Assembly (NCBI GenBank): GCA_039720395.1
Contig: CM077824.1
Coordinates: 28,768,586 to 28,832,585, forward strand
Source: Liquidambar formosana
Lineage: Eukaryota; Streptophyta; Magnoliopsida; Saxifragales; Altingiaceae
DNA length: 64,000 bases
Direction of reading: 5' to 3'
The notes under the pieces are model-generated. The model saw nothing but the letters and a program-made list of their open reading frames with translations. It had not been told where the DNA came from and did not search any database. A program made the translations under genes and the position numbers. The first letter of the stretch is position 1, and every line of letters begins with the position of its first letter. This document shows positions 19,104 through 60,713 of this stretch, piece by piece.

Positions 19104-21096
19104 ATGGATGTAGTGGAAGGTGGTCGGCACAGACCAACTGCATCTGCTAGGCGACGGCAACGGGCGGCGACTGATCAACACCCAGCTAGAGGCAGACGCC
19201 GTCCCCGGGGTGGGATTCAGCCTGATGTAGCACCCCCTCCTCCACCTATTGCCCTACCAGTACCCCCACCAGTAGATGTCCCAGCTGGTGACGTACCTGA
19301 TGCTGAACAACACCCAGCTAGAGGCAGACGCCGTCCCCGGGGTGGGATTCAGCCTGATGTAGCACCCTCTCCTCCACCTATTGCCCCACCAGTACCCCCA
19401 CCAGTAGATGTCCCAGCTGGTGACGTACCTGATGCAGAAGCTGCACATGTTGTTGATGCACCTGAAGATGCTCCTGCTGCTGCTGTTTGGGATGGGATTG
19501 GACCACTTCCTGGAGGTCCAGTAGATGAGTCGCTCCTGATTAGTTTCAGGACACATGTCGCATCACAGATTTGGGTCAACAGAGATGTATGTCAAGTCAT
19601 AATAGCATCTCATTTATATGTCTGTTATTTTATTTTATTTTTTGAGTAGTCTCATTTATATGTATTACATTCATATCATGTTTGACATTATTAAAGTGTT
19701 CAACTTTTCTAATGCAGTATCGAGGTGTCATGCGACCACACTCTCATACGAAAATCCTGGAGCCCCCCTATGTGTTGACACAGATCATTGAGAGGACGCG
19801 ACTCAGTCCACTTGTCACGTGCTCTTTTCGATGGACCCATAAAGCCTTGGTCACAGCTTTTGTGGAGAGATGGCAGCCAGATACGAACACTTTCCATATG
19901 CCTTTTGGTGAGATGACTATTACCCTGGACGATGTCGCCACCATCTTAGGGATTCCTGTGATTGGGAAAGTTGTCTCCTGCCCCAAATTAGATGATGCAG
20001 TTGCACGGGACCTACTTGTGAGCGCTTTGGGAGTTGAGGATAGTGATGCTAGTCTTGCTCTACGAGATGTCCGTGGCCAGTCTGTGAAGTTGTCATGGCT
20101 GAAGACAAAATTTGCCAACCTTGGTGACGCACCTACTGTTGAAAGAACTACCTATGCTGCGAGGGCGTACCTGCTTTACCTTCTTGGCTCTACTTTATTC
20201 ACAGACAAGAGCGGGGGCAGGGTGTCAGTTGGCCTCCTCCACGTATTACAGGATTTGGATACAGTCCATGAGTATGGTTGGGGTGCTGCTGCATTGGCTA
20301 CTTTGTATCGACACTTGGGTATGGCCAGTAGGAGTGATTGTAAACAGATTGCTGGCTATTTGACCCTTCTAGAGGCATGGGTGTATGAGCATTTCCCAAT
20401 GTTTCAACCACCCCGTAAAGTTGGATATGTTGATGTGGATCCATGTGTGCTGCGTTGGGCTCCTCTCAAGGATCAGGGGAGCTCTTTATCACATTTATAT
20501 AACTTAAGGGAGGCACTTGACGACCTGCAGTCTGAGTCGGTATGATATTTATTGATATTTTAGATTGTTGTAATTTCATATCTAATATATTTAAAATTTT
20601 CCAACTTTAATCGCTAATTACATACGTTATTTCTTATTTCAAGTTGTTTGGGATCCCTATAGCTGCATTAGGGGTCATCATCCTCTTGAGGAGTTCACAT
20701 ACTACGCTGGGTTGCTGCATTGTGTCGATATTGTTGAACCCTACTAGCCTGACAGGGTTCTTAGGCAGTTTGGACGTGTCCAGTACATTCCGCGTGCCCC
20801 AGTACAACCAACATCATCTACCCGTGGTTCATCTGCGCAATCCTACAGTCTATTATTCAATGTTGTTGGTAATCAATTGGAGACGTGGATGAATCATTTG
20901 TTGGCAGCAGATGCACGCAGTTCCCCCGTGAGTTTTCCAGGAGAAACCATTGTAGGGTATATGGATTGGTTTAGGGGTGTGTCACATACTCGTGTGCAAA
21001 ACCCAGCTCACCGGGCCTTCCCACTTCCAGTTGTGGAGCCACCTGTCCAGCCAGTACGCAGAGATCCTCAAGAGGTCGTCCTTCCATTGACAACCT

Positions 21097-21410: not shown

Positions 21411-22143
21411 TTTGGGTTGTGGGCAGATATAATTTTTTGGACTTGGATGATGTCATTTTTTGGACTTGGATTATGTAACTTTTTTGAATTGAATTATGTG
21501 GTTCTAGAATTGTAATTATATTTGGTGGTGGGCAGATGAGGATAGGTTGCATATTTGTTTATTTTGAACTTGGAGTATATGGGTTTCTAGATTTGTATTA
21601 TATGTAGTGGTGGGCAGATGAGGATAGGTTGCATATATTGTAAGTTATTTTGGATTTGAATTATGTGGGTTTCTGGAATTGTATTATCTGTGGTGGTGGA
21701 AATGTGTTTTTTGCAGGTTATGTTTAAAGTCGAGAACTTGGTATGTTCCATTTTTAGGCGGGACCATGCCGAAATTTACAAAAAATGGTCAAAAGTTTTT
21801 GGACGCCGAGAACTTGGTATAAGATAAATAATGGAGTTTAAAGTAACATAATATCAAGAAATTGAGTATAGGAGAAATAACTTGCATCAAGGGTTAAATT
21901 CTAACCCTTTTTTCTCACACTTTTTGGTTTTTCAGGGGTTAGGTCATACAAAAGGGGTTAGGTCATACAAAAGTTTATGCCACCCTAAGAGGTCCACTAT
22001 GAAATGTTAGGTCACATGTTAAAAAGTTGACATACTCACTTTTACAGCAGCTTCAAGGGTACTAGCAAGTCACGCAAGTCCTGCCTCAAAAAGGGTAGGT
22101 TGTAAACAGGGTACGTTGTATCAATGTAAGTGGTTCTGTGTCG
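21411..22143. other. region downstream of the PMD gene with short tandem repeats
   Basis: GTGGTGGGCAGATGAGGATA recurs near 21523 and 21608, along with repeated GAATTATGTGG and TTTCTGGAATTG phrases, giving two or three units of about 85-90 bp. No gene is seen. The region ends at the retrotransposon's target site CCCTT (22144-22148). Confidence 0.6.
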
Positions 22144-22148
22144 CCCTT

Positions 22149-23541
22149 TGTGAGCGCCGCGTCCTGAACCACGCCGGCTCGGGAGTACGCCGCTAACCAC
22201 GGGTGTGATTAGGGCGGAGAGGGAGTCGCCACCCGGTTGGGCCCCGGGAACCGATTGACCCCTAGCAAGAGGCCCACTCGTCATTACCCAAAGAATCAAG
22301 GTTCGGAGTTAAGGTACGTTGTTGGGAAGGTGTTAGGCACCCGAAAACGCCCGGCTAAATCCGGCCTCCACACGCATTTTGTTGGCTTTAATTAATGAGA
22401 AATATTAATTGAGTTTAACCCTATTCATGCGACAAATATATCAAGCGACTATTGCACACAGGATGACATTATGTGAATAAAAATATGCAAATAAATAACT
22501 AAACAGAAGATAAAAATTAACAGATAGAATAAACAGTAGCTATGAAAGGAGAAAAAGGAGAAGGATTCGTCACTGCCTGCAAAAATGGGTTAGCACAGCA
22601 TCACAGATATGCGTACGTACAAACACAAGGTGCGTACGCACCTTTAATTTATACGTACGCACATTTAATGGCAGATTCGAAAATAACAGAAAACATGCTA
22701 AAATTGCACATGCTATTTTACTCCAAATTACAGAACCCTAATTGCATGCAGATATCCTATCATGTCATTATTACACCCTAAATCTAACCGTGAATTTATG
22801 CACTTTAAACATTACACCGATTAATCATGCAAAGACATATTTAAATGATGCTAAACATGCTAGAACATAATATAAAGTGTAGATCTGGTCATGCAACATT
22901 TGATTGAAAGCACTTGAAATCACGGCATTCAACGAAAATACGCATGATGGAAAATATGCTTGGAGGAATAATTAGTGATTATTCAAAGAACTGAATCATA
23001 AAAGACGTTACCCTCAGGTTTGGGTGAATCCCAATGAATGCACTAACAAGAATCTCTCCTTCGAGCCTCCGTAATCGCAGCCGCCGCCTTTTCAGCTTTA
23101 GGTTAAGAGTCTTTAGGGTTTTGTGGAGCTTTCAAAATAGTGGTGACAAAAAAGGTCCCTTCATTTGATGCGGAAGTGGTCTTTTTATAGGCGAAGAATT
23201 AGGGTTTCGGGGTAAGGAACTAGGGTTTCTCTGGTTCTCAGCCGTCACAGGCCGGATGTGCAGTAGGCTCCATCCATATAAGGCAACAGGGGAAATGGGG
23301 GGAAAAATTCGAATACTGGAATATTAACATGCGTACGCATAAATTTAAGGTGCGTACGCACAAATTAAAGGTGCGTACGCACAAAGGAATGGGCTGGGCT
23401 TCTTTGGGCCAGGCTGCAGCTGCGACCACATCAGTTCTTTGGGGATCACTTGTTAGTCATTTCAAGTTGGGCTTCTCTTCATCACCGGGCTTAAAAGGGT
23501 GGATTCGAAATATTTAGGCGGTACAAAATGGGGTGTTAACA
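22149..23541 (-). repeat. 3' LTR of the Tat element
   Basis: It starts TGTGAGCGCCGCGTC and ends GGGGTGTTAACA on the plus strand. In element orientation a TATA box (TATAAAA, 23183-23189, minus) has three CGTACG palindromes 145-190 bp upstream (23332, 23353, 23374). A second triplet lies downstream (22612, 22633, 22654). All neighbours are 21 bp apart. Confidence 0.95.
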
Positions 23542-23556
23542 GTTGCCCCTTCTTTC
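23542..23556 (-). other. polypurine tract of the Tat element
   Basis: Read on the minus strand, GAAAGAAGGGGCAAC directly precedes the 3' LTR. This is the expected place and composition for the plus-strand primer of reverse transcription. Confidence 0.75.
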
Positions 23557-23811
23557 AGCTCTATTCGCAGAGTGAATAGAACTGAAAGACTATAAACAAT
23601 CCATTTTGGCCGGCCGATATTCCAAGTCCTTGGAACAAATGCTGAGATATGCATAAGGTGAGATGAGGTCGAATCAGACAATGAGCCTGCTTTCCTACGT
23701 ACTCTTTTCAGAGATCAGACCTAACGTAGTTCTTATGCGTGGTATTGACTTTTCGGGGCACGAGAAAGTCCGTAAAAACAGTGATGAGTTGAATTGACGC
23801 TGCGGATTAAA

Positions 23812-24330
23812 TGATTCGCGGGCGGAATCGAGAAATTCGCGGGCTGAATTTCTGATAACGGACGATTCACAGGTAGACTCGAGAAATTCGTGGGATGAAT
23901 TTCGGATAGCGGACGATTCACAGGTAGAATCGAGAAATTCGCGGGCTGAATTTCTGATAACGGACAATTCGCGGGTGGAATTGGGAAATTCGCGGGTGGA
24001 ATTTCAGATCACAGACAATTCGCGGGTCGAATTGATAACGGACAATTCGCGGGCGGAATTGGAAATTCGCGGGTGGAATTTCAGATCACGGACAATTCGC
24101 GGGTTGAATTGATAACGGACAATTCGCGGGTGGAATTGGGAAATTCGCGGGCGGAATTGGGAAATTCGCGGGTGGAATTTCAGATCGCGGACAATTCGCA
24201 GGTCGAATTGATAACGGACAATTTGCGGGCGGAATTGGAAATTCGCGGGTGGAATTGGGAAATTCATGGGCGGAATTGGGAAATTCTGATAATGGACAAT
24301 TCGCGGGTGGAATTGATAACGGACCTGATG
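23812..24330. repeat. tandem repeats in the Tat 3' untranslated region
   Basis: A short phrase (GACAATTCGCGGGTGGAATT) recurs in many variants, alternating with AACGGAC and ATTTCAGATCACGG, and builds higher-order units of roughly 60-110 bp. Tat-clade elements are known to carry hypervariable tandem repeats near the 3' LTR that can seed satellites. Minus-strand open frames through it are repeat translation, not genes. Confidence 0.85.
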
Positions 24331-24439
24331 AGCCGAATTTTGAAACGCGGCACTGAACACTCGAGGTATGGTCGAGTGATTCGTGCGTGGCATGGTTCAC
24401 ATGCTTCGAGGAGCAACAGGGGGTCTGTCTCAAAAAGTG

Positions 24440-24507
24440 CGTACGTATAAAATAAAACGCGTACGTGGGACCTAAATACACGTACGCGTAAAGTAAATGT
24501 GCGTACG
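24440..24507. promoter_or_regulatory. four CGTACG palindromes upstream of the antisense PMD gene
   Basis: CGTACG cores lie at 24440, 24460, 24481 and 24502, spaced 20, 21 and 21 bp. They stand 213-280 bp before the ATG at 24720. An A/T-rich TATA-like stretch lies near 24526-24536. Position and phasing match the arrays in the LTR and before the second antisense gene. The role is inferred. Confidence 0.6.
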
Positions 24508-24719
24508 CATATTTACTTGATGTTAGAAAAATAAAAACAGAACGACGCCGTTTCGCCTGGACTGTTCTTCTTCTCCATGAACCCGACACCCTTCCTCCAT
24601 TTTCTCCGGAAACTCCTCACCCACGATTCTCTCTCTCTCTCTCTTCCCTCGCACAAAAACCCTACATCTCTCTCTTTTCTCCTTACTCCTTCTCATCCTT
24701 CGATACCCACAACAGAGGA

Positions 24720-27314
24720 ATGGCTCCCAAACGAGCACGGCGTGAAGGCGCGCAAGGCGGCGAGGAGGGCAAGCCGGCGGTGAAGCGATGGGCTCCGAAG
24801 CGCATCGTGAATGAGGTGATGAGGATCGTGCATCGTCCCAAAGAGCACCTCTCCCACTACGCACGCCAAGGCATGGTACGACCTTCACCCCTTTTCGCAT
24901 TTGTGTTCGTTTCCTCTTTCGCCGTTTAGTCTAGATTAGGGCTGTGAAACCTGCTGTCAATGAATGAAACATACTAATGACGAATGGCCTAAGTGGTTTG
25001 GGGTAGAAAAACACGACCTTGACTGACTGTGATGGGGGCGGGAAACGATGGGGACGATGACAAACTTTGAACACAAAATGTGCGTACGTGCTTTTGTTTT
25101 ACGCGTACGTATGTGTAGGAAGCGTAGAATTGCAACTGAACAAAGAGCGTACGCTATTTTCATTTATGCGTACGCGCATTCCTGTAATGAACAAACACGG
25201 GCTTCCAAAACACGCGTACGCACATTTAGTTGAAGCGTACGCACATTCCTGTAATGAACAAACACGGGCTTCCAAAACACGCGTACGCACATTTAGTTGA
25301 AGCGTACGCACATTCCTGTAATGAACAAACACGGGCTTCCAAAACACGCGTACGCACATTTAGTTGGAGCGTACGCGCATTTACAAATCCTGAAAATGTA
25401 AATGTGCGTACGTACTTTCAGGTGCTGTTTTGGCCTCCTATAAGTGCGTACGCATATCCAAGGATGCGTACGCACATTTTAAATGTACGTACGTTTATTA
25501 TTCAAACAGAATATGTGTAATGCGTACCTGTGCTGTGTACTTACCTGTGACTCTTCTTATGGCAGCTTCCACCTGAGCTTGTGACGAGGGGCAGTTTCAC
25601 CAAGACAGGTGCTTGGTGGAATCGGCTCTCCGGCGAGACCAGAGCTCTGGTCAATGCCGTCGGTTTTTCTGCAATCACGGCCGACGTGAACGCGCGCACT
25701 CCCAGGGCGATAGTCCATTGCCTAGCTGAGAGGTGGTGGGACACTACACATACATTGCACATCGGAGGGCGAGAGTTGACGATGACCCCTTACGATTTCT
25801 ATCGGTTGTCCGGGCTGCGTATGACTGGAGAGCCTTTCTCCTTTGATCATGATGCAGACGAGCGAGCAGAGATTTCAGTGCGGCTGCTGGGCATAGCCTT
25901 TACTGGTTCTTCCATTTACTGCCCCGGCCTATATGATGCGTACCTCTCCTACCCGCAGGATACCCCCGAGCACCGAGCCCACATGGCGCGAGCTTACATC
26001 ATGTTCCTCTTGGGGGCCTATCTGGTCCCCAACTCTTCACAGACCGTCTCTTTTGGGTGGCTGCTGGCCTTGGAGGATCTGGAGACAGCCGATCGTTTCT
26101 GTTGGGGCGCCGCCATTTATGCCCATCTAATCTCCGCCATGGATTCACTGAGCAGGGGTGCTATCAACTCCATGCTTAGTTATTGGAGAGTGTGGGTGGT
26201 AAGATTCTTTATCTTCTCTTGTTTGTGTAACTTCTTTGCTCATGATGTTTTATTTCTATCAGCTCACTTGCGTTTTTTATTGTGCCACAGCTATGGGTTC
26301 ATAGGTACCTCCGGAAGGAGGTTGAGGAGGAGGGAGTCCCTGCAGTGAGTATGCGGCAGCATCTGAGCTCCCGCAGGTTCCTCGACGAGATGGTGGTCGA
26401 GAGGGTAAGAATCACTACACAATCCTGCGCTTCTTTGTTTTCTTTCATTCCTCTTCCTGATTTCTTATGTGTTCGCAGATCGTTCCCCGCCCCTGGGAGG
26501 ATGAGGCACCTTTGCCCCCAGTTGAGCACGACACTGCGGCGTGGGAGCTCACCTCAGTGTCGCAGGTGTTCGAGTACGCCGGCGCCCGTTCGTTCTATCT
26601 GGCTGAGAGGGTAGCTTGGCAGTTCGATGCCGATATGGGCGTGATCCCTCGTGTGCCGTTGGATCCTCCCCCGTATATTGCATTCCCTTACCAGTGCAGT
26701 GACGAGGATTTGGCCGTCTGGCGGGGTGGGATTGCATATACAGACAGACTGATGGGGGAGGATCTTGATTACGAGCTTTTTGCCAGAGAGCAGCTCATGC
26801 CGAGCCTTTCCATGCCCTCGACGGTGGGTCAATATCCTGCTCTTTCTTCTTTTTCACTTTAATCCTGTTATCTGATCTGATGACGTGCTTTGCTGTAGGA
26901 CCCACATGCGTCATCTTCCGGAGCTGTAGACCCTGTGTACCCGGGATGGTACGTGCCCTTTCATGAGACGAGGGGCGTTCCAGGGGAGCGGATGGTTCCC
27001 CGGGCGTCTTCCTGTCTCGGCTACCCCATGCCTGAGGGTGTCCGTGCGGTATGCAACATCTTACCTGTATTTGAAAACACGTTAAAATGCTATGCATGTC
27101 CTAACATGATCCCATCCTTGTTTATTTTGGACAGCCTACTATCCCGGAGGTGTCAGACCTGATCCATTTGGTGGGCAGCCTGAAGCTGATGGTGACGGAT
27201 CTGTCCCTTCAGCTAGTCATAGCTCGGGAGGAGGCGGAGGGTCATGGTGAGGATGCCGAGAGCGGCGATGATGATGATGGTGGCGAGGGTAGCGATGCTG
27301 CCTCGGACTCTTGA
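24720..27314 (+). CDS. antisense plant mobile domain (PMD) protein of the Tat element, 525 aa
   Basis: Six exons fit with GT/AG borders and no stop: 24720-24875, 25566-26198, 26291-26404, 26479-26823, 26899-27048 and 27135-27314. All introns are phase 0, giving 526 codons with TGA. The N-terminus is basic (MAPKRARREG). Exon 2 holds the PMD core: HCLAERWWDTTHTLHIGGRE, then MTPYDFYRLSGLRM, then ARAYIMFLLGAYLVP, then WLLALEDLE. The C-terminus is acidic (Asp/Glu/Gly/Ser-rich). It is transcribed against gag-pol, lies between pol and the 3' LTR, and is followed by a second antisense gene. CGTACG arrays sit upstream and throughout intron 1. The PMD family is recognised; a role in anti-silencing or gene control is inference. 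The intact frame in a young element suggests selection. Confidence 0.88.
25083..25493. repeat. dense CGTACG palindrome array in intron 1 of the PMD gene
   Basis: Cores lie at 25083, 25104, 25148, 25169, 25215, 25236, 25282, 25303, 25349, 25370, 25407, 25447, 25467 and 25488. Neighbours within a group are 20-21 bp apart. Part of the array (about 25181-25380) has been amplified as three 67-bp units, each carrying two palindromes. Confidence 0.9.
25181..25380. repeat. 67-bp tandem repeat, three copies
   Basis: CCTGTAATGAACAAACACGG starts at 25181, 25248 and 25315. Copies are nearly identical, so the amplification is recent. Confidence 0.92.
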
Positions 27315-27785
27315 CTGTGTTGTTTCTTTTTTTTCTTTTATTTCTTGGATCAGACTTGTTTTAAACTTTACATTTGGGGTTGTATACTCATGTTTACTCA
27401 TTTCTCCTTCCCTTTCTTACGTGGATAACTTAAACACTCATATCCTTGTTTTTGTTGTGTTTCAATTGTGCTATGAGTTCGACCATCCCATCAATATTGC
27501 GAAGCAAGCCGATGTGTTAAGTACCCGAAAAGCTAAAAACTGCACCAAAACCCCTTCAAATGTGCGTACGCATGAAACACATGTGCGTAAGCACATACCA
27601 GTGCTGGTATTAAACATGCATACTCACAAATAGTATGTGCGTACGTACCTTTGAAATGTGCGTACGTACATTTACCCACCCTGCTTCCCTATTTTCATAC
27701 TTTCCAAAAATGAAACCAGGAAACCCTGGTACCTCCTATAAACCCAAGCTCGACCTTGCGCCTCCTTCTTCACGAGTTAGAATTC
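27315..27785. promoter_or_regulatory. spacer and likely promoter of the second antisense gene
   Basis: CGTACG or one-off variants lie at 27565, 27586 (CGTAAG), 27640 and 27661, again 21 bp apart within pairs. A TATA-like TATAAAC lies at 27737-27743, about 43 bp before the ATG at 27786. The palindromes sit 70-170 bp upstream of it, the same arrangement as in the LTR. Confidence 0.6.
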
Positions 27786-29130
27786 ATGGAGGCCTCTCAA
27801 CTTGGCAAAACGATTACCCGATGGCTGACGTCCTTTAGTGATTCGGCCAAAGCCGAATTCAATGAACTCTTTGGCCTGCCGTGCATCTTTCATTACTGTC
27901 AGGTGGACGTTAACTATCCTTTTCTTCACGTGGCTGCGGAATTTTGGCACCCGTCTCGCCATGTGTTCCGGTTCAACTGTAACGAGCTGTGTCCGACCAT
28001 TGAGGATTTTGGCGGGATCCTTGGGCGTACTGCTTTCAATGGTTTGCTCGTGCCGATTACGGAAAAGGTTACCGCAGATGAGGTTGCTCGGTTTCTCGGG
28101 CTCTCTACGAGGCTGGTGAAACAATGGGTGAAGGATTTTCGCATCGACGTCCCTTCCTTGTCGCAGTATTTTATCAACCGCCCAATGCCCACCGGGGAGG
28201 CTCGCGTCTTTTACCTGCGTGCCGCGTGTATGTGTGCCATGGCTACCCTTTTCTTTTTGGAGGAGCAGAACAAGATAGAGACCTTCATTGTTCGTTCTCT
28301 CACTGAGATAAGGAGTTTCAATCCGAGTATGATGATTCTTGCCGGTACCCTCAATGGTCTGGATCGAGTAGTGCGCACCGAGAGCTTCTCCTTTGATGGC
28401 AGTCCCCTCTTACTACAGGTTCCCGAGAGAGATCCCCCGGCTTTCCCGCCCGTTATCATTTTTTTCCTTTTACTGGAATTTGCCTAAATATGCGTACGTA
28501 CATACTAAAGGTGCGTACGCATATTTAAAAAGTGCGTACGCATATTTATAACTCCTGTTTTTCCCCTTTTCGCAGATCTGGCTGTATGAACGCCTGCGGT
28601 TAATTGCTGAGCCAAAGATGAGCATCTGGACTTATCATCCCCAGCACTATCGTTACCGAAAGTTGCAAGCCCCTTTCCCGTCTGTCGAGGAGTCCCGAGA
28701 GATGCTGGATACCATTCCGTGCCACGCGATCTTATGGTATTGCCCCTGGTGGCGAGTCACTTACGCTGTGAAGAAGCTCGTGCTCTCTTACTGTGTCATG
28801 ATGGTTGGTCTTAAGGAAGTCTCTTTTTACTCCCCTCTCCGTATCCATCGCCAGTACGGGGAAAAGCAAGAACCTATCAAGTATTGGCATCTTGGGTATA
28901 CTTGTCCATGGTCCCCTAGGGTAGTGGAGCGTATTGAGGACGAGTGGCACAATCAAGCCGTATATTGGCGTATCTCAGCCCCCAAAGTGATCAGCCCGTC
29001 AGGAAGTTACTACACATGGTTAGCTACTGACATGGAGAGGGAAGTGGAGGCTGAAGAGACATACAAGCGGAAAAGGGATGCTGAAGATGAAGAGGGAGCA
29101 AGCAAGAGGGCGAAAGATGATTCTACTTAA
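27786..29130 (+). CDS. antisense DUF7745-like (PMD-related) protein of the Tat element, 395 aa
   Basis: Two exons fit: 27786-28418 and 28576-29130, with GT/AG borders and phase 0. I chose the ATG at 27786 (MEASQLGKTITRW) because the frame upstream has no ATG. Motifs include AAEFWHPSRHVFRFN, then ELCPTIEDFGGILG, then YFLRAACM-type helices. This layout is typical of the plant family I know as DUF7745, which resembles the PMD core and often occurs in repetitive loci. The C-terminus is Lys/Glu-rich and may carry a nuclear signal (KRKRDAEDEE). The intron (28419-28575) carries three CGTACG palindromes at 28493, 28514 and 28535. The frame is intact. Function is unknown. Confidence 0.82.
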
Positions 29131-29286
29131 TGAATGAGCCCGGATGATTTGGTTTCATTTATGCATTTTCCTTTCTTTCCTATGAGTTAACGAATAAGCA
29201 TCAAAGATGTACTAGTCTTTACCATTATCAATGAAGAATTATTATATTAATATGAGCACCGCATTATACAAAGTTGGCACTTATCC

Positions 29287-32200
29287 CTACACATAATACT
29301 TGCGAAGCCTATCCATGTTGATTGGATGAGTGAACTCATTACTATCACTGTCCATGAGCTTAACAGCACCTCCGGGAAGGATTGTCTTAATGATGTAAGG
29401 CCCCATCCAGTTTGGCTTGAATTTTCCGCGGGGGTCAAACACTGGTGCCCGAAATTCCTTCAGTACTAGATCTCCTTCTTTTAAGTTCCGTGGTTTAACT
29501 CTTTTGTTAAAAGTTCGGGCCACACGGCGTTGATAACCTTGCACATGATAGGATGCTTTTAACCTCTTTTCTTCTAAAAATGCCAACTACTCATACCTTT
29601 CCCGCATCCAATCCATTTCTGGAATTTCACTTTCTATTGCTACGCGTAACGACTGTACTTCCATTTCTACAGGCAAAACGGCCTCCATCCTGTATACCAG
29701 TGAGTATGGGGTTGCTCCTGTGGAGGTTCTTATGGATGTCCTATATCCCCACAATGCATATGGAAATTTTTCAGCCCAATCTTTGTAAGTTATGGCCGTC
29801 TTTTCCAAGATGGTCTTAACGTTCTTGTTGGCGGCTTCAACAGCTCCATTGGTTTGTGGCCTATAAGGAGAAGACTGATGGTGCTGGATTTTGTATTTCT
29901 CGAACATGCGCTTGACCTCATCCTCGAATTGTGTGCCGTGATTTGAGATGATCTCATGTGGTACCCCATAACGACAGATAATATTGGCCTCTACGAACTT
30001 AGCCACTTGCTTGGATTTCAGTTCTGTGTAGGCAGCCGCTTCTACCCACTTGGTGAAATAATCGATAGCCACTAAAATGTACTTGTACCCTCCTGTGGCA
30101 GCTGGTTTGATTTCTCCGATAATATCTATGCCCCAGGCAGAGAAAGGCCAAGGAGCACTCAACTGATGCAACTCAACCGGTGGCATGTAGTTAGAAATGG
30201 AATATACCTGGCACTGATGACATCTCCGAACATATTTTACGCAATCATTCTCCATGGTACTCCAATAGTATCCCAACCTCATAAGCTTTTTGGCTAACAT
30301 TCTTCCGTTCATGTGCGTCTCGCATTCCCCCTCGTGAATCTCCTTCATCAAGGTCTCCCCGACATTCTGATCAACACACAACAGATGAATTCCGTCATAA
30401 GACCTTTTGAATAACTTCCCTCCGCAAATGATGAACTGTGTAGCGAACAATCGTAATGCCCTACGTCCTTTCTTATCGGCCCCTACCGGGTATTCCCCTT
30501 TTCCTAAGAGGTTCCACACATCATGGTACCAAGGATATCCGTCATCTGGCTCCCCGTCAATCAATGCAATCATTTCCTCATGCGCTGGCCTAGACTTTTG
30601 CTGGACGACCAATGGTTCTATCTGGGTCCCGCAGGGTATTCGAATAAGCGAAGCTAGGGTGGCCAATGCATCCGCGAACTGGTTGTGGATTCGAGGAAGC
30701 GGGGTAAACGTTATCTTTTGGAATTTCTGTGCCAACTTCTCTAGGTAACTCTGATAGGGTTTTAAGTGCTCTTCTCGAGTCTTCCAAATTCTCTGAACTT
30801 GGGAAATTACTAAAGCTGAATCCCCATACACCTCTACCTCCTCTGCCCCTAGTACTAATAATGCCTCTAGACCTGCAATGCATGCTTCGTACTCTGCCGT
30901 GTTATTTGAGTTTGGGAAGTTCAATTTAAACGATAGCGGCACATGAGACCCATCTGGGGTAATTAAAAGAACTCCCACTCCATCTCCATATTGATTAGAG
31001 GCTCCGTCGAAGTACATCTTCCAAGGTCCAACGCAATCTATAACAAAGAGATCTTCATCAGGAAATTCATCGTTCAATGCCTGCCCCGGGACCGGATTCT
31101 CAGCGCAATATTCCGAGATGGCCCTTCCCTTGATGGATTTCTGCGTGACATATATGAGTTCAAACTGGGCCAGTAGAGCCAACCATCGTGATAACCGCCC
31201 GTTCAGCACGGGCTTTTCAAACAGATACTTGAGCGGATCCATCCTGGCTATAACCCAAACCTCGAAACTTGACAAGATGTGTCTCAATCTTTGTACGGCC
31301 CAAACCAAGGCAAAACAGGATTTTTCTATGGCATTATACCTTGCCTCATACCCCTGCAGCTTCTTGCTTAAGTAGTATATGGCTCGTTCGCAGCTTTGGT
31401 CGTCCTCCTGTGCTAACATACTCCCTAGAGCTTCCTCAAAAAGAGACAAGTATAATAGTAAAGGCCTCCCAGGGCGAGGGGGGACCAATACTGGTGGGTT
31501 CAGTAAATACCTCTTGATGGTGTCAAAGGCTTCCTGGCATTGTTCATTCCACTCCTTCGGCTCTCCCTTCCGGAGTAACTTAAAGATTGGTTCGCATGTT
31601 GGGGTGAGTTTCGCGATAAACCGGCTTATGTACTGCAATTTTCCTAAGAACCCTCTGACTTCCTTTTCGGTACTAGGGGGTGGCATCTCTAAAATCGCCT
31701 TTACCTTGAGCGGGTCTACTTCGATACCTCTGCTGCTTACGATATACCCCAGTAACTTCCCCGATGTGACCCCAAAAGTACATTTCTGGGGATTCAACCT
31801 TAAACTGTATGTTCGTATCCGCTTGAAGAACTTTCTCAGGTTTTCCAGATGTCCGTCTCGAGTTTCCGCTTTTACAATCATATCATCCACGTACACCTCA
31901 ACCTCTTGGTGCATCATGTCATGTAACAAAGTAGTGGCCATCCTTTGGTAGGTGGCTCCAGCGTTCTTCAACCCAAATGGCATGACCGTGTAGCAGTAAG
32001 TGCCCCATCCGGTGGTAAAGGTCGTTTTGCCCATATCTGCTGGTGCCATCCGTATCTGATTATACCCCGAGAAACCGTCCATAAATGACATTAACGCACT
32101 CCCTGCGGTATTGTCTACCAGAACATCTATGTGCGGTAATGGAAAGTCGTCTTTTGGACAAGCTTTATTTAAATCCCGGTAATCTATGCAGACTCGCACC

Positions 32201-33045
32201 CGTCCGTCCTTCTTTGGCACAGGTACTATGTTTTCTATCCAGTCGGCTTGGTCCACAGCTTTTATAAACCCTACCTTTAGTAGCTTCGTAACCTCTTCTT
32301 TGACCTTTAATGACCATTCTGGTGACATTCTCCTCAATCTCTGCTTTACTGGTTTCACCCCATCTCGAATGGGAATGTGGTGCTGGGCGATTTCTGGGTC
32401 TATGCCGGGCATGTCCTCATATGACCATGCAAACACGTCTTGAAACTCTCGTAAAAGAGCGGATAAGCTTGCCTGTTCATGCATGGTCAGGGTAGAGCCA
32501 ATTTGTATATTTTTTGGATTTTCTGTGGTGCCTATATTAATGATAATAGTTTCTTCTTTGATAGGTTCGATTTTCCCATCTTGGTCCTTATTAGCTAATT
32601 CATTTGGACTTAGAAGGTCATGCATTGGATTAGCCTCGTCATTGGGGGACTCATTCAAATAAGCAAAATCAGATTTTATTGCATCATCAAAAATTTGGGT
32701 TACATTGGTGGATTTTTTTGCGACAGACTCATTCCCAGACTCTAGCTTAACTTTAGAGAGGACAGACTCCTTATTTATTTTGACATTATAAGTGATTTCA
32801 GCCTCGCGTTCCCAGACCCAAGCACTAGTGTTCCCATCAGCCGCAGAGATGAACTCGGAGGGGTTAACAGTCCCAGCATTCTTACTTAAAACCAGCACGC
32901 CTTCATTGCTTCTAGCTGACAATAGGAGGTCCCAGCTTGCCTGATCCACATTTTCAACCCAATCTTGTTCTTCAGAGATCTTAACAGTCTCTGAGCTTGT
33001 GTCTCTGAGGGTTAATTTTTCTTGGAAAAACACCTCCAGCCCCAT
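29287..33045 (-). CDS. pol: Tat pol: reverse transcriptase, two RNase H domains, integrase; one in-frame stop
   Basis: Domains in order: reverse transcriptase (RVCIDYRDLNKACPK, then the YVDDMIV active site), the usual gypsy RNase H (YLSKKLQGYEARY), a second archaeal-type RNase H (YFDGASNQYGDGVG, then NTAEYEACIAGLEAL), and integrase with an HHCC finger (CHQC). Dual RNase H marks the Tat clade. Two faults are visible. TAG at 29587-29589 cuts off the last 99 codons. The integrase motif normally read SDNG is SNHG near 29950, replacing the second catalytic Asp by Asn. The start overlaps the end of the gag-protease frame by about 34 bp in another frame, so expression would need frameshifting or reinitiation. 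This copy probably cannot integrate on its own. Confidence 0.93.
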
Positions 33046-35648
33046 TTCCTTTTTTTACTCTTCCGATTCATCCACGGTTCAGGGAATCCACAATAAGGGA
33101 AATCCTCTCCTTCCTTTATGAAATTTCCGTTAAGCGTATCAGCATTTTTGGGAAAATGTTCCTTGTTCTCGCCTGTGTACCCGAGTCCCCTTCGATTGTT
33201 CTGCATATGAAATTCTGGGAATTCCGTGATGCCATCTCCTCTTTTCCCTAACCCCATGCCAGGCATGTATCCAAATTTCTTCATGATGTGGGCCACGATG
33301 TGATTAATATTTTCCCCAAAATCTGGGGATACCTTCTCCTTTTCTTCATCTGCTCTGTCAATCACTTGTATGAATTCGAAGCCCCTCCATTCTATCTCAT
33401 TGCTTTCCTCTTTTATCCTCAAGACCTGCTCGGTGATTTCCCTGTCCCCGTGAATTACCAGAATGCCCCCACCCCATGGCAACTTGATTTTCTGATGCAC
33501 AGTGGAAGGGACTGCCTGTAGAGGGTGTAGCCAGGTCCTTCCTAACAGCAAGTTATAGTTGGCAGGGATGTCCATGACACAAAATTCCACTGTCGATTCC
33601 ACTGGTCCCACTTTGCATGTTATCTTGAAAGTCCCCATCACACTCCTGCAACCATTATCATATCCTCTGACTGTTACTGCGGATGGTGAGAGATTTTCCT
33701 CTGTTATTCCCAATTTTGTCGCAGTACGCATTGGGCAGACATTCAATGCCGACCCATTATCAACCAGAACTACCGGTATCTTTAGGTCTTTGCATTCTAC
33801 AGTGATATACAGCGGCTTCGCATGCTCGAACCCTTCAACTGGCAAATCCTCTTGGGAGAAAGTCATCACGGCTTTGTTTATTGAGCTCACCCCCATGAGG
33901 GACAATACTTGTTCAGGGGTAGTTTCCATTGGTACCTCCTTTTGCGCTAAAGCGTCCAGCAGAGCTTGACGATGCTTCTTTGAGGCAGTAATCAAACCCC
34001 AAATGCTTATGCTCGCCTGCGTCTTTTTTAGCTGTTTCAAGACCCGATCTTCCTCTTCTTCTTCTCCCGGGCGCCCCATTCTCTCTCTTACCTTCTCGAT
34101 GTCTGCTTCTTGGCTCATTTCTCGGCCCGGGTGATCTGCTTCCAGAAATCCGGGCTTGAAATGTCTCCCGGAGCGAGTCAGGTGCATGGAATCCTTTTTC
34201 ATTTCTGCCCAGATATCCTCCTCTTCACTATCATAATCTTCCCAGGGAGCTTTCTTTGTACCGATCATTAGAATAAACTCGGACGGGTCCTCGACCTTAT
34301 CTGCACAACTGATCAAATTCATAAATGCCGGGGGCGGTGTATTTCTGAAATCCGGGAGCGGGTTATTCTGTATGTTTGGCTTGTCGTTACTTGGTGGTGG
34401 TAGCTTTCCTGAATCGATCAAATCCTGGATTTCATTTTTCAGACGCATGCAATTATCGGTTCTGTGGCCTATGCGCTGGTGGAAATCGCAAAACTCATTC
34501 TGTCTCCAGTGCGGGGGAATAGGGTTGGGTAGCGCCCTAGGTTCCAATGGCTTCAAATGCCCTCTTTTGTTCAAATTGGCCAAAGCCTTTGACAATGGGA
34601 CTCCCAGGTCATGGTACACTCTCGGAGGTTTCTGTGCTGCTTGGGCTTGTTGGACGGCCCCTATCGTGGCCTGTATTGGGGTCCCACCGCCCATCCGGTT
34701 GCCTCCGTTTCCGCTGCTGGTACCGGAACTATATGTCTTCTTTTGCCTGTCCACCTGACCACGATGAATGGCGTCTTCGATGCGAGTCCCACACTGATAT
34801 AACTGTTCAAAGTTCATAACCGAAGAGGTCAGCATGCGGTCGAAGTAAACGGGCGTCAAATTCCTCAGGATGATGTTTATCTGGTCGATTTCCGTGGGTC
34901 TATTTATCATTTTGACGGCTTTAGCTCTCCAGCGGGTCAAAAACTCAGAAAACGTCTCGTTTGATTTCTGCCTTGTCATCTCCAGGTCCCTCAAGGTGAC
35001 ATCCAGCATAGTGTTGTAAGCGTACTTGTTGGCGAATTCCGAAGCGAGTTGTTCCCAAGAGTCTGAGACCTTTGGGTCAAGGGCGTAGTACCATTTCGAA
35101 GCATCTGACGAGAGAGACAAAGGGAAGGCATACAAAACTTGGTCGGGGGTTAACCCCCTCATCTTAGCGATGCTCAGGTACTGGCGCAAGTGCTGTTTGG
35201 GATCGCCGGTGCCATCAAACTTCTCATAATCAGCTATCTTGAATTTCGGGGGAAGCTGTACCTTCGACTCAGTTGTGATCCCTGCCATAGAATACATGTA
35301 GTCATCTATGCCTTGCGACTTTTGCCATGCCGTCTGCATTCGGTCCATCCGGGCCTTCATGTCAGCATTCTCTGCTGCTAGTTTCTCCACCCGGGCGTCC
35401 TTTTCTTTGGCCTCTTTCCTCTTTAGGTAATCCTCGTAGTCGTCATCTTCCCATCTCGGGTGTTCTTCTTCAGTTCCCTTAGGTTCCCCTTTTTCCTCAG
35501 TCTCAGGTTGTTCTTCTTCTCCTGACTTTCCTTTCCCTTTTTCCAGCTTGGTAACACGATCCCTCATCTCATTCATGAAGCCCCTCATCTCGGCCTTGTC
35601 GCTTCTCATCTGTTCAAGGATATCAGCTAAAGTCACTTGCTCTGCCAT
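33012..35648 (-). CDS. gag: Tat gag-protease with G-patch
   Basis: The frame is open from 35777, but MAEQVTLADILEQ at 35648 is a more natural start. It has a coiled, charged N-terminus; a retrotransposon gag core (LRQYLSIAKMRG, then WYYALDPKVSDSWEQL, then MINRPTEID); a zinc-knuckle-like stretch (FCDFHQRIGHRTDNC); an aspartic protease (VVLVDNGSALNVCP); and a C-terminal G-patch (MKKFGYMPGMGLGKRGDGI). It forms the virus-like particle and processes the polyprotein. No stops are seen. The G-patch after the protease is shared with Ogre/Tat elements. Confidence 0.93.
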   Translation of the reverse strand: MAEQVTLADILEQMRSDKAEMRGFMNEMRDRVTKLEKGKGKSGEEEQPETEEKGEPKGTEEEHPRWEDDDYEDYLKRKEAKEKDARVEKLAAENADMKARMDRMQTAWQKSQGIDDYMYSMAGITTESKVQLPPKFKIADYEKFDGTGDPKQHLRQYLSIAKMRGLTPDQVLYAFPLSLSSDASKWYYALDPKVSDSWEQLASEFANKYAYNTMLDVTLRDLEMTRQKSNETFSEFLTRWRAKAVKMINRPTEIDQINIILRNLTPVYFDRMLTSSVMNFEQLYQCGTRIEDAIHRGQVDRQKKTYSSGTSSGNGGNRMGGGTPIQATIGAVQQAQAAQKPPRVYHDLGVPLSKALANLNKRGHLKPLEPRALPNPIPPHWRQNEFCDFHQRIGHRTDNCMRLKNEIQDLIDSGKLPPPSNDKPNIQNNPLPDFRNTPPPAFMNLISCADKVEDPSEFILMIGTKKAPWEDYDSEEEDIWAEMKKDSMHLTRSGRHFKPGFLEADHPGREMSQEADIEKVRERMGRPGEEEEEDRVLKQLKKTQASISIWGLITASKKHRQALLDALAQKEVPMETTPEQVLSLMGVSSINKAVMTFSQEDLPVEGFEHAKPLYITVECKDLKIPVVLVDNGSALNVCPMRTATKLGITEENLSPSAVTVRGYDNGCRSVMGTFKITCKVGPVESTVEFCVMDIPANYNLLLGRTWLHPLQAVPSTVHQKIKLPWGGGILVIHGDREITEQVLRIKEESNEIEWRGFEFIQVIDRADEEKEKVSPDFGENINHIVAHIMKKFGYMPGMGLGKRGDGITEFPEFHMQNNRRGLGYTGENKEHFPKNADTLNGNFIKEGEDFPYCGFPEPWMNRKSKKRKWGWRCFSKKN

Positions 35649-35777
35649 TCTGCTTATTGCAACCCTCCTAAGTCTGTTGGTGGTCGGAGATCGAGCCCAA
35701 ACACAACCAAATGCCGTTCTTGGTGTCGAATCAATCGTGCTGAAAGGAGAATGAGCGTGCATGAGTACTTCCCCCAA

Positions 35778-35951
35778 TTTTAAAGTTTTCTTTCAAGTCT
35801 TTTACCCGTGTCATACCTTATCATCGAACCCTATCATGTTTACTAAATCTTCAAAGGTTCGATGACAGGTAGACCTCTCTTGTGAAGTCAAAAGCACCAT
35901 CTCATCCTTGGCCCATTACAATGCTCTCATTTGGGATCCAAACCTCTTCCT

Positions 35952-35999
<48 letters not shown>

Positions 36000-36703
36000 T
36001 TTGGTCCCATTACAGATTTATCTCACTTTCCTCTTGTTGGGCTTTGGACACAATGGTGCTTGGACTTCGGTCCAGCTTGGAAGGTTATGGACATTCCGTA
36101 TAGGTCCTAGTCCTTTACTACCAGTAGGTCCACCTCGCATGTAAATTTCCTTTGTTCGAGCCCAAGACACACATCTTACCACTCTCTTGGACTATAGGCC
36201 TAACAGACTTTTTTTTTTTTTTTTTTTTTTCGTCCGACGGGCCTAGGTCCAATTACATTGTCGCACAATCTTCCCTCAAATGAGCTCGAACTTAGAAAAT
36301 CCACATTAAAGTGGGCCTCGTCCCATACCCGTGCTAAGAAATGAATGCAACATGACATGCGATGCAACACACATTCACACAAGGTTGGGTAAGAGCCTCG
36401 GGGGTTACTAGTGTGGTGGGTCAGAGTGGGGTGTCTCCTTCAAGGGTTACCCAGGCTAGGGTGCTCAAAGAGCAACCCGTTAACGTACTCACTAACTTAT
36501 CACAGGTTAGTGGCACAGGCCGTGGGCTGATGGTGCTGAGCCGAGTTGCCCATAAGATCGAGTGGATCCCAGGTCTCTAATCAGACTTCCATCGAGGGGT
36601 AACAAAGTGCCAAGATCGTGCGCGTGTGTGCAATTTGGTTTTCACCCAATTAAAAATTCTCATTAATTAAAGCCAACAAAATACTTTGAAGTCTAATTCT
36701 CTA
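35778..36703 (-). other. Tat 5' leader with two long A-runs
   Basis: About 0.9 kb lies between the primer site and gag. It contains two tracts that read poly-A in element sense: 40 bp (35955-35994) and 22 bp (36209-36230). I see no gene. Confidence 0.7.
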
Positions 36704-36721
36704 TCCCCAGTGGAGTCGCCA
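36704..36721 (-). other. tRNA primer-binding site of the Tat element
   Basis: On the minus strand TGGCGACTCCACTGGGGA follows the 5' LTR after one base. Its place and its opening TGG fit a tRNA 3' end. Ogre/Tat elements often use tRNA-Arg, but I could not verify which tRNA matches. Confidence 0.7.
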
Positions 36722-36722
36722 A

Positions 36723-38115
36723 TGTGAGCGCCGCGTCCTGAACCACGCCGGCTCGGGAGTACACCGCTAACCACGGGTGTGATTAGGGCGGAGAGGGAGT
36801 CGCCACCCGGTTGGGCCCCGGGAACCGATTGACCCCTAGCAAGAGGCCCACTCGTCATTACCCAAAGAATCAAGGTTCGGAGTTAAGGTACGTTGTTGGG
36901 AAGGTGTTAGGCACCCGACAACGCCCGGCTAAATCCGGCCTCCACACGCATTTTGTTGGCTTTAATTAATGAGAAATATTAATTGAGTTTAACCCTATTC
37001 ATGCGACAAATATATCAAGCGACTATTGCACACAGGATGACATTATGTGAATAAAAATATGCAAATAAATAACTAAACAGAAGATAAAAATTAACAGACA
37101 GAATAAACAGTAGCTATGAAAGGAGAAAAAGGAGAAGGATTCGTCACTGCCTGCAAAAATGGGTTAGCACAGCATCACAGATATGCGTACGTACAAACAC
37201 AAGGTGCGTACGCACCTTTAATTTATACGTACGCACATTTAATGGCAGATTCGAAAATAACAGAAAACATGCTAAAATTGCACATGCTATTTTACTCCAA
37301 ATTACAGAACCCTAATTGCATGCAGATATCCTATCATGTCATTATTACACCCTAAATCTAACCGTGAATTTATGCACTTTAAACATTACACCGATTAATC
37401 ATGCAAAGACATATTTAAATGATGCTAAATATGCTAGAACATAATATAAAGTGTAGATCCGGTCATGCAACATTTGATTGAAAGCACTTGAAATCACGGC
37501 ATTCAACGAAAATACGCATGATGGAAAATATGCTTGGAGGAATAATTAGTGATTATTCAAAGAACTGAATCATAAAAGACGTTACCCTCAGGTTTGGGTG
37601 AATCCCAATGAATGCACTAACAAGAATCTCTCCTTCGAGCCTCCGTAATCGCAGCCGCCGCCTTTTCAGCTTTAGGTTAAGAGTCTTTAGGGTTTTGTGG
37701 AGCTTTCAAAATAGTGGTGACAAAAAAGGTCCCTTCATTTGATGCGGAAGTGGTCTTTTTATAGGCGAAGAATTAGGGTTTCGGGGTAAGGAACTAGGGT
37801 TTCTCTGGTTCTCAGCCGTCACAGGCCGGATGTGCAGTAGGCTCCATCCATATAAGGCAACAGGGGAAATGGGGGGAAAAATTCGAATACTGGAATATTA
37901 ACATGCGTACGCATAAATTTAAGGTGCGTACGCACAAATTAAAGGTGCGTACGCACAAAGGAATGGGCTGGGCTTCTTTGGGCCAGGCTGCAGCTGCGAC
38001 CACATCAGTTCTTTGGGGATCACTTGTTAGTCATTTCAAGTTGGGCTACCCTTCATCACCGGGCTTAAAAGGGTGGATTCGAAATATTTAGGCGGTACAA
38101 AATGGGGTGTTAACA
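36723..38115 (-). repeat. 5' LTR of the Tat element
   Basis: Same length and ends as the LTR at 22149-23541. Differences I noticed include G/A in GTACRCCGC, a C/A in the CCCGAMAACG phrase, and three changes near GGGCTWCYCTTC. It carries the same two CGTACG triplets, for example cores from 37906, and a TATA box at 37757-37763. Confidence 0.95.
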
Positions 38116-38239
38116 CCCTTTGAGGGCTTGAATTGATATTCAGGAATATATTTAATTATTGGAATATAATTAGTCACCTATTGAACAAAAAGGATGTATA
38201 AATTGGATGGTTTAAAGGAAGATATGTTCTAAAGTCTCA

Positions 38240-38915
38240 AAACGATATGTTCGGTACCACTATGCCGAACATAATGCTCTTGTTCGGTTGTATGAAACCG
38301 AACATCTAAGTAAGATCTGGCGAAATAACACCGAACGGTGTATTATGGAAATTCAAAATGAGATGTTCGGTGGTATGCCTCCGAACATAATGGCCATGTT
38401 TGACTTTAGACGACCGAACATGTATGTAATGTTTGGTTGTATGGCACCGAACATACTATTACGGTAATTCAAAATGATATGGTTGGTCGTATGAATCCGA
38501 ACAAAAAGCTTTTGTTCGACTTTAGAAAACCGAACATGTACGCAACGTTTGGTGACATGGCACCGAACAGTAGTATTACCTGAAATTCAAAATGATATGT
38601 TTGGTGGTATAACTCCGAACATACCGCTCTTGTTCGACTTTAGAAAACCGAACATCCAAGTAATGTTTGGTTGTATGGCACCGAACATACTATTACGGTA
38701 ATTCAAAATGATATGTTTGGTAGTATGAGTCCGAACATAAAGCCCTTGTTCGACTTTATGAAACTGAACATTTAAGAAACGTTTGGTTACATGGCACCGA
38801 ACGGCATTACGGTAATTCAAAAGGATACGTTCGGTGATTGTAATCCGAACATGGTGAACTAGTTTGGTGACATAAAACCGAACATTAGAATATTGTTTGG
38901 GTACTTAATGCCGAA
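38240..38915. repeat. 116-bp tandem repeat made of phased CCGAAC palindromes
   Basis: About five units begin AATTCAAAATGATATG at 38349, 38466, 38584, 38700 and 38814. Within a unit, interrupted palindromes of the type TGTTCGGTT-6 bp-AACCGAACA recur at 33, 33 and 50 bp (CCGAAC at 38298, 38331, 38381, 38414, 38447, 38497, 38530 and onward). The block lies just beyond the 3' end of the transposase gene, on the MULE side of the retroelement's target duplication. Confidence 0.92.
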
Positions 38916-44030: not shown

Positions 44031-45001
<971 letters not shown>

Positions 45002-45391
45002 CTAATTTGTGTTTCCAATGAAGTATTCTTGGTTGCCCCTCCGGAAGAGGCCGCCTTGATATTGTCGTCTCCAACTTGTGCTATGTAGCTGGATATAATG
45101 GCACCACGTAGTTGGAAGTTTGCAGGCAGATAAGTTTGTCTTAGCTTGCAACATGTCATTTATTACGTAATTGGAAGTTTCAGCTACATAATTAAGTTTC
45201 TCTTGTATCATGTCATATATGGCCTGTAATAGGTGTGATACACAACACGTACGGACACAAAATTCGTAGGCCGCAGTGCAACAAATGATATCGCGGTGCC
45301 CTGGTGGTTTTGACTTTGGAAGGAACTTTTTTGGTACGTGCACACATTTGTGTTTCAGGAGAAATTTCTTCCCTTTTTCTCCTTTTTTTTT

Positions 45392-47223: not shown

Positions 47224-48346
47224 TGTAACACCTGTAATTTTTAAATATGGTATTAAGGGTTTAATCTATAGTTAATGTAGTTAATCCCTTGATTTTTTGA
47301 ATGACTTCATGCATGGGTAATGCATGTGTATGATATTATGATGTTGGATGTGTTTTGATGCTTGTTTTTGTGCATCGAGTATCTTTCGAGTGCGTTTAGC
47401 CTTATTTGCAACTTAAGGGTTTAAGTTGCTGAAATTTGGCTAAGTGTTAGGGAAAAAATGAATTTTCGTAAATCTTCGTTTTTAAATATAATTTTTGGCG
47501 GTAATGGAAGTTTATAATATTATAAGACTTCTGTGATTTTATGGGATTTTATTAGCATGTTTGGATCGGATTCCTCACATGTTTGTTTTAGAAAAATCTA
47601 TCGGGAGACGGATTTTGTACTAAAACTTGGAAATGAGATTTTGATATATTGGGTATTTGATTTTTCTGATATTTTATTTGGATTCAAATAGGGGGTTATT
47701 TGCTTATTTTCATTAAGTAACTTAAAGTAATCTTCCATTCTTTTATTCTCCCTTTTACTTAAATGTTTTGAATGAAAATAAGATTGTGGAGTGTATTCTG
47801 CCTGTTTGAGTGGACTGAAGTGTGATTTCAGTTGATTGAATTACACAGACGCTGAAGAATTTGAATTCTAGGATTTTCAGTTGACTGAATCCTCAATTCA
47901 ATCGACTGAATTGTCATTTCAGTTGACTAAATTGCTAAATGAGTCGACTGAATTGATCTGAAGGCTTATTTTTGCTGAAATGACGCATGTGCCCCTCTGA
48001 GGTTATATAAACCCTTTAACCCCAACTTGTAACCCTCATTCCTGCATTTTAGAGTGAGAGAGAGGGAGAGTGAGCTTGGGAGAGCTCTTAGGGTGTATGA
48101 AGGAGAGAGAGCGAGTTTCTCTCTCTACTTTTGCTTGAATTTTATGCTTGGGGGCTTGGATTTCAGCATTTTTAGCTTAGATTCACTCATGGTTTACCTC
48201 CATTTCAGATTTGAGAGGTAATTTCTCATGTATAAGGCTAAGGTTTGCATTTCTTTTGGATTTTAGTTATCATATCCTCATATCTTGTGTTTATTCATGC
48301 AATTTGTGAGGTGTGGTTGCATCTTGGAGTTGGAATCTCCATTTTC
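47224..48346 (+). repeat. truncated LTR of family X, first part
   Basis: It starts TGTAACACCTGTAATTTTTA and matches, over more than 600 bp with substitutions, the reverse complement of the solo LTR at 51694-54345. A TATA box (TATATAA) lies at 48004-48010. Four palindromes of TCAGTCGACTGA type precede it, with centres near 47882, 47903, 47924 and 47945, each 21 bp apart. The LTR is cut at 48346 by the copia element and resumes at 60634. Confidence 0.82.
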
Positions 48347-58940: not shown

Positions 58941-58941
58941 C

Positions 58942-60633: not shown

Positions 60634-60713
60634 TTCTCTTTATCAACCAAGTCATTTGGAAGTTAGGGCTTGGATTGGGAGCTTACATGTGCATCGCGCG
60701 TGGACATGCATCT
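60634..60713 (+). repeat. truncated LTR of family X, second part
   Basis: ATCAACCAAGTCATTTG, then AGGGCTTGGATTGGGAGCTT, match the solo LTR just where the first part (ending 48346) should continue. The remaining roughly 1.3 kb of the LTR is absent. Confidence 0.72.

Follow-up and report, generated by a model that had tools for sequence, protein, structure and literature searches.

The window considered here, that is the whole stretch of DNA analyzed (64 kb), carries a Tat-type Ty3/gypsy LTR retrotransposon of about 16 kb (22149-38115), which lies on the minus strand and was delimited by LTR alignment and by reading its edges directly, with a 5-bp target duplication, CCCTT, present at both outer edges. 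This element is young. Because it lies on the minus strand, the LTR that the first-pass annotation had called the left one is the 3' LTR. Two predicted genes, as1 and as2, are encoded in antisense orientation, and the features of the locus are listed below (papers are cited throughout by PMC identifier, for the passages covered).

22149-23541, minus strand: 3' LTR, with 7 differences over 1393 bp relative to the 5' LTR (LTR alignment)
22612-22659, no strand assigned: LTR array a, a triplet of palindromes spaced by 21 bp, located downstream of the LTR TATA box
23184-23189, minus strand: likely LTR TATA box, TATAAA, a pattern match only
23332-23379, no strand assigned: LTR array b, a triplet of palindromes spaced by 21 bp, located upstream of the LTR TATA box at a distance of 143-190 bp
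23813-24314, no strand assigned: second motif array, 20 units of the AATTCGCGGG type, at spacings of 20, 21, 27, 30 and once 37 bp
24440-24507, no strand assigned: array upstream of as1, 4 palindromes (20, 21 and 21 bp apart), with a TATAAA at 24446 inside it
24720-27314, plus strand: as1, predicted exons 24720-24875, 25566-26198, 26291-26404, 26479-26823, 26899-27048 and 27135-27314, 525-aa PMD protein
25083-25493, no strand assigned: as1 intron 1 sites, 14 palindromes that form 21-bp pairs, one triplet and one isolated site, some of them being copies made by a 67-bp tandem repeat
27565-27666, no strand assigned: array upstream of as2, 3 exact and 2 damaged sites (27586, 27619)
27786-29130, plus strand: as2, predicted exons 27786-28418 and 28576-29130, weak donor GTTCCC, 395-aa PMD protein
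28493-28540, no strand assigned: as2 intron array, 3 palindromes at 21 bp
29587-33054, minus strand: pol ORF, with successive RT, RNase H, second RNase H and integrase domains
33012-35792, minus strand: gag ORF, with a G-patch at the C-terminal end
36723-38115, minus strand: 5' LTR, six palindromes, the same as in the 3' LTR

In the pol product, RVT_3 (the second RNase H) occupies residues 682-799, between RT_RNaseH (527-630) and the integrase zinc-binding domain (894-950). Since a second RNase H located between RH and integrase characterizes Ogre and Retand, the angiosperm Tat clades (PMC6317226), this arrangement assigns the element to the Ty3/gypsy Tat lineage, as an Ogre or Retand type. 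Like Tat/Ogre elements, it shares both this domain order and extra ORFs encoding a plant mobile domain (PMD), the latter being a common but not strict feature of the Ogre clade, reported in 57% of Ogre elements (PMC6317226), and both antisense proteins score above the PMD cut-off. PMD and G-patch domains are known from LTR elements, and the primer binding site of Ogre corresponds to tRNA-Arg (PMC9289625 for both). The element also resembles Retand in having a long region between pol and the 3' LTR that harbors antisense genes and tandem repeats (PMC11963269). In Retand, however, the antisense product is TRP28 (PF04195), which is found in 97% of Retand clusters (PMC11963269), whereas as1 and as2 encode PMD proteins and gave no match to PF04195 up to E 10. 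A regulatory, DNA-binding role has been proposed in the case of Retand (PMC11963269), and according to PMC7264820 it is not known what antisense genes do in retrotransposons of this kind.

The exons of as1 and as2 were predicted visually, on the basis of GT-AG borders and of an open reading frame, and the resulting coding sequences (525 and 395 aa, respectively) contain no internal stops. The PMD (PF10536, cut-off 34.9 bits) is detected in the spliced products at 61.6 bits for as1 and 49.5 bits for as2, with matches that cross the exon joins. The spliced as2 match (E 4.7e-13) is far better than that of the second-exon stretch alone (E 9.2e-5, or 0.007 when cut at the predicted border), which supports the predicted as2 splice. 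The proposal that a Tat element carries two antisense genes with introns is supported, with the introns being predicted and both products being PMD proteins. Basic stretches resembling nuclear localization signals (NLS) occur at the start of as1 (KRARR) and at the end of as2 (KRKR and KRAK).

Several other features of these proteins were recorded. Four weak helix-turn-helix matches, all below cut-off, fall within residues 94-132 of as2 (best E 0.0082 with the full protein and 0.0032 with exon 1); this stretch is a lead only, and may be just a shortened PMD loop. A separate PMD ORF is located in the left flank of the element (19646-20545), and a PDB sequence search with it returned no match up to E 1. 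An AlphaFold prediction for as1 exon 2, based on three alignment rows, proved useless (mean pLDDT 34.9). In the literature passages covered, no DNA binding by a PMD is reported.

The hexamer CGTACG occurs exactly 39 times in the window, including 30 sites at 22612-28535, six in the 5' LTR (37186-37948) and three outside the element (44479, 44908 and 45248). The first-pass annotation had described about 30 such palindromes in the left LTR and antisense-gene region and six in the right LTR, a description that is exact down to the coordinates. CGTACG ranks first for enrichment among all 64 six-base palindromes in the 3' LTR and antisense region, with 30 occurrences vs 0.96 expected (score 27). 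For comparison, seven control windows taken outside the element, which overlap in part, gave at most 13.3, for ATATAT. A first-order Markov model predicts 0.1 occurrence for the 3' LTR and 0.78 for the remaining antisense region. The palindromes had also been said to avoid gag-pol: zero CGTACG is indeed found there, but only 0.3 is expected, so that this absence says little and does not count as evidence of avoidance.

Base counts over 27 sites (the 30 minus the copies produced by the 67-bp repeat at 25282, 25303 and 25349) give a consensus of about AAATGTGCGTACGCACATTT, whose core columns are fixed by how the sites were chosen and whose information fades near 11 bp from the center. The repeated word reads approximately GTGCGTACGCAC with A/T flanks. 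A scan with a symmetric matrix, which scored no higher than 8.6 elsewhere than in the element, retrieved two sites with a damaged core (27586 and 27619), each located exactly 21 bp from an intact site. The remaining non-exact matches comprise a weak one in pol (31385, score 4.7) and three that coincide with intact sites in a frame offset by 4 bp. When flanks only were searched, an intact core was present in 12/12 matches scoring above the best score outside the element, and in 17/20, 19/25 and 22/31 matches at looser cut-offs, figures that are partly circular because the matrix was trained on core-intact sites.

The 30 sites define 29 neighbor gaps, 17 of which are under 30 bp: 15 measure 21 bp, two measure 20 bp and none measures 22 bp, in agreement with the groups of 20-22-bp spacing, mostly 21, reported previously. 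Once the three sites copied by the 67-bp tandem repeat are removed, there remain 15 pairs spaced by 20-21 bp, of which 13 have the 21-bp spacing. Within the window, 21-bp palindrome groups are found only in the Tat element. A phase running across the whole regulatory region, as was also claimed, is not supported: no helical phase of 10.5 bp links the groups within a region, which are separated by 44, 46, 46, 46, 37, 40 and 75 bp. The phasing is therefore local, and what is repeated is a pair or a triplet rather than one long phased array. Beyond the array ends, the matrix scan revealed no further site at 20-22 bp except 27619.

The distribution of the 30 sites (six in the 3' LTR, four upstream of as1, 14 in as1 intron 1, three between as1 and as2, and three in the as2 intron) bears out the claim that they lie upstream of both antisense genes (4 + 3) and in their predicted introns (14 + 3). 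None is found in the predicted antisense exons, which represent about 2.77 of 7.44 kb, although a simple probability of such exon avoidance is overstated because the sites are clustered. Their reported position upstream of the LTR TATA box is correct for array b, but not for array a, which lies 525-575 bp downstream of the chosen box. The match at 23189 was taken as the LTR promoter, a second minus-strand TATAAA being present in the 3' LTR at 22653, inside array a, and all TATA boxes considered here are pattern matches and not mapped starts. At two promoters (LTR and as2), an array is found 70-190 bp upstream of a TATA-box match. At as2, the TATAAA at 27737 is located 71 bp past the array, which spans 71-172 bp upstream of it, and 49 bp before the start codon.

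Which protein could recognize these sites? The main rival to the explanation proposed below is a host GTAC-binding transcription factor exploited by the element, most plausibly of the SBP/SPL type, in which case the PMD genes would be unrelated to the arrays. GTAC lies inside all 30 sites, by construction, and corresponds to the SBP core (PMC6600651). Motifs for host factors are frequent in LTRs (PMC12786077), and arrays upstream of TATA boxes are placed where host activators would be expected to bind. SBP/SPL targets have the same palindromic GTAC center (PMC6600651), whereas the word repeated here is a palindrome longer than the GTAC core, forming an extended dyad in 21-bp groups, and a simple host-activator model would not predict sites in both antisense introns. 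Sequence alone cannot separate a host factor from a self-encoded one, and we regard the host factor as a serious though rather unlikely explanation.

The symmetry of the sites was examined at positions 4-10 from the center in the set of 27, where 90/189 comparisons were complementary within a site, vs 96.5 (sd 5.8) after shuffling halves. The two halves are hence similar on average while each varies on its own, a behavior that fits the two half-sites of a dimer and not a selected stem, which agrees with the dimer-type sites proposed initially. A single position, +/-5, was nominally above the shuffles (0.74 vs 0.59, P 0.02), among 13 variable positions. These data bear on a different explanation, in which the palindromes would act as nucleic-acid hairpins, either as RNA stems in the genomic RNA or as a double-stranded source of 21-nt small RNAs. 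All arrays would be contained in the full-length sense RNA, and minus-strand RNA folds better than all 200 shuffles for each of the four arrays tested (-38.1 kcal/mol and z -7.8 for LTR array a). However, palindromes fold well by nature, and co-variation is seen neither within sites nor between the first and third units of six triplets, whose pairing (0.50 vs 0.52 by permutation) is not above expectation. As regards a structured RNA family, there is no Rfam match in 21500-38500 and no overall within-site co-variation. A hairpin function appears very improbable.

Repeated units at a fixed distance might also be a neutral minisatellite, a 21-bp unit palindromic by chance and duplicated by slippage, with a spacing devoid of function. 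Tandem Repeats Finder reports the palindrome unit as a 21-bp array both at LTR array b and within the intron of as2. Tandem repeats of 67 bp and of 51-99 bp are present in the region as well, and about half of the Retand elements surveyed carry tandem repeats between pol and the 3' LTR (PMC11963269). Four triplets (those of LTR arrays a and b, the one preceding as2 and the one in the as2 intron), picked from six after their likeness was seen while the other two do not fit, display an in-register similarity of 0.644, reached by only 1/216 unit orders, and could be dispersed copies of a single one. Pair by pair, their register was the single best in 2/6 pairs, tied in three and beaten in one, and their outer flanks are unlike (identity 0.125-0.325). 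A cassette of about 60 bp may thus have been copied to four places, on what is modest register evidence.

On the other hand, when the core is set aside, units separated by 20-21 bp do not resemble each other more closely (identity 0.552 over 15 pairs) than units more than 200 bp apart (0.514 over 304 pairs; P 0.20), and the sites occupy several places, with none in predicted antisense exons. In the four triplets, the core differs in 6/108 comparisons, all due to one damaged unit, vs 96/270 outside the core, which suggests selection on the palindrome core, in a comparison biased in part by the fact that the arrays were found by their cores. The seven differences between the two LTRs, none of which falls in the palindrome arrays, are too few to judge core conservation. 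A neutral minisatellite is considered improbable. The independent variation of half-sites, the lack of any extra likeness between 21-bp neighbors and the small number of core differences in the four triplets point to dyads bound by a protein more than to a recent repeat or a hairpin.

Separately, the CpG ratio was considered as a sign of hypomethylation. With the motif masked, it is 0.57-1.64 for the LTR, non-coding and antisense parts and 0.67-0.68 for pol and gag; these mixed values do not indicate hypomethylation, and this line was dropped.

The closest functional parallel is provided by the VANC anti-silencing system of Arabidopsis VANDALs, which are Mutator-like DNA transposons (PMC13317346). 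VANC21, encoded by VANDAL21 itself, binds YAGTATTAY motifs, which are tandemly repeated within introns of VANB21 and VANC21 as well as upstream of VANA21 (PMC5735166), and VANDAL21 loses methylation (PMC5735166, PMC10398659). Like the Tat element, VANDAL encodes proteins, and its non-coding DNA, both upstream of genes and within introns, contains dense short-motif arrays, a trait for which 30/30 sites are found here outside predicted exons, and its arrays have spread by tandem repeats, as here (PMC5735166). VANDAL is a DNA transposon, whereas the element described here has LTRs, RT and integrase and is not Mutator-like. The VANC21 motif does not resemble CGTACG, and neither does CATGCAGTTT, the motif associated with the Arabidopsis PMD proteins MAIN/MAIL1 (PMC9899485), resemble the CGTACG palindrome; the words palindrom, spacing and helical are absent from PMC5735166.

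VANC proteins carry DUF1985 and DUF287 (PMC5735166), whereas the proteins considered here are PMDs with only sub-threshold DUF1985 matches. DUF1985 (cut-off 35.1 bits) was matched by two of three PMD stretches, as1 exon 2 at 15.5 bits and the flanking PMD ORF at 17.8 bits, with E values of 0.0033 and 0.017 for the two, which are not independent since both stretches are PMDs. Full-length as1 reached only 12.8 bits (E 0.12), and as2 gave no DUF1985 match. We read these weak matches as a hint of a distant kinship between PMD and DUF1985. Given the different transposon class and the sub-threshold domain match, the system proposed for the Tat element is one that would work like VANC, not VANC itself. 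PMDs captured by MULE transposons have been speculated to serve anti-silencing, and clades PMD-A1 and PMD-A2 are encoded by Gypsy elements only (PMC5418596 for both); the explanation proposed here extends the MULE idea to a retrotransposon with a candidate target.

We tentatively propose, as a possibility that falls somewhat short of an even chance, that the palindromes are sites for one dimeric, sequence-specific DNA-binding protein, most likely the element's own PMD proteins or a factor recruited by them, which would keep the non-coding DNA of the element unsilenced as VANC does. Each site would consist of two half-sites (about ACGCAC, then A/T-rich) placed back to back, and the 21-bp spacing would put neighboring dimers on one DNA face, so that pairs and triplets could bind together. 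A single factor would then serve the LTR promoter as well as the promoters and introns of the two antisense genes, thereby coupling sense and antisense expression. If this factor were made of the element's own PMD proteins, or recruited by them, it could maintain the non-coding DNA of the element in an active, unsilenced state, like VANC for VANDAL transposons. We infer the binding, the identity of the factor and the direction of its effect. A broader version, possible but doubtful, is that LTR retrotransposons have their own VANC-like system, in which antisense-encoded PMD proteins would bind helically phased palindrome arrays in LTRs, promoters and introns, and would free the whole element from silencing.

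To what extent are similar arrays documented elsewhere? The Tat/Ogre passages covered (PMC6317226, PMC9289625) mention no CGTACG or dyad array, and in PMC11963269 CGTACG appears 0 times and 'palindrom' only in a reference title. In the open-licence literature, titles or abstract openings among the matches listed describe no comparable palindrome array, and no paper combines three of GTGCGTACGCAC, GCGTACGCA, CGTACGCAC, retrotransposon and palindromic. Viral contigs scanned with the RT-RNase H stretch, as1 exon 2, as2 exon 1, the flanking PMD ORF and the integrase end yielded no confirmed relative. Pattern scans for phased CGTACG triplets retrieved 36 stretches in viral contigs and at least 119 in genome contigs, all 80 among the matches listed being titled bacteria; as these collections are without plant genomes, such scans are no evidence of absence in plants.

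The element thus encodes two PMD proteins and contains a candidate target for them, which makes the function of its antisense genes testable by one binding experiment. If as1 or as2 bind these arrays, a scheme of self-targeted regulation would be common to retrotransposons and DNA transposons, and plant chromatin could be steered through these arrays in a new, sequence-specific manner. If the broader proposal is true, PMD and DUF1985 would form one superfamily, and the host silencing proteins MAIN and MAIL1 would be relatives of an anti-silencing factor used by retrotransposons.

Outside the element, the Tat-type Ty3/gypsy LTR retrotransposon on the minus strand at 22149-38115, the following features were annotated:

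19646-20545, left flank: a long ORF with a plant mobile domain (PMD, PF10536; 188 bits)
38265-38852, directly right of the element: a tandem repeat with a period of ~116 bp
40778-41986, right flank (minus strand): an ORF for a MULE transposase that has a FAR1 domain
48346-50157 and 58941-60638: a pair of direct repeats, 93-96% identical and ~10.5 kb apart

The direct repeats resemble the LTRs of a putative further element, and no ORF of at least 230 aa was found between them. The right flank also holds three isolated CGTACG (44479-45253; 0.28-0.57 expected), which lack the extended palindrome and show no phasing. Five CGATCG are packed into 80 bp at 53649-53725; 0.1 would be expected for the whole 7.4 kb stretch that holds them.

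The left-flank ORF shares 28-30% identity with exon 2 of as1, one of the two predicted antisense genes of the element, both of which encode PMD proteins. In the other, as2, residues 94-132 (within 27786-28418) gave four weak helix-turn-helix matches (HTH_23, HTH_28, HTH_17 and P22_Cro), each below the cut-off.

The element itself carries a second motif array:

23813-24314: 20 copies of a AATTCGCGGG-type unit

Many of these units take the form AATTC-7 bp-GAATT, and the units are spaced at 21 bp (seven cases), 20 bp (two), 30 bp (six), 27 bp (three) and 37 bp (one). This array may be the target of a second factor, or else may represent an ordinary tandem repeat.
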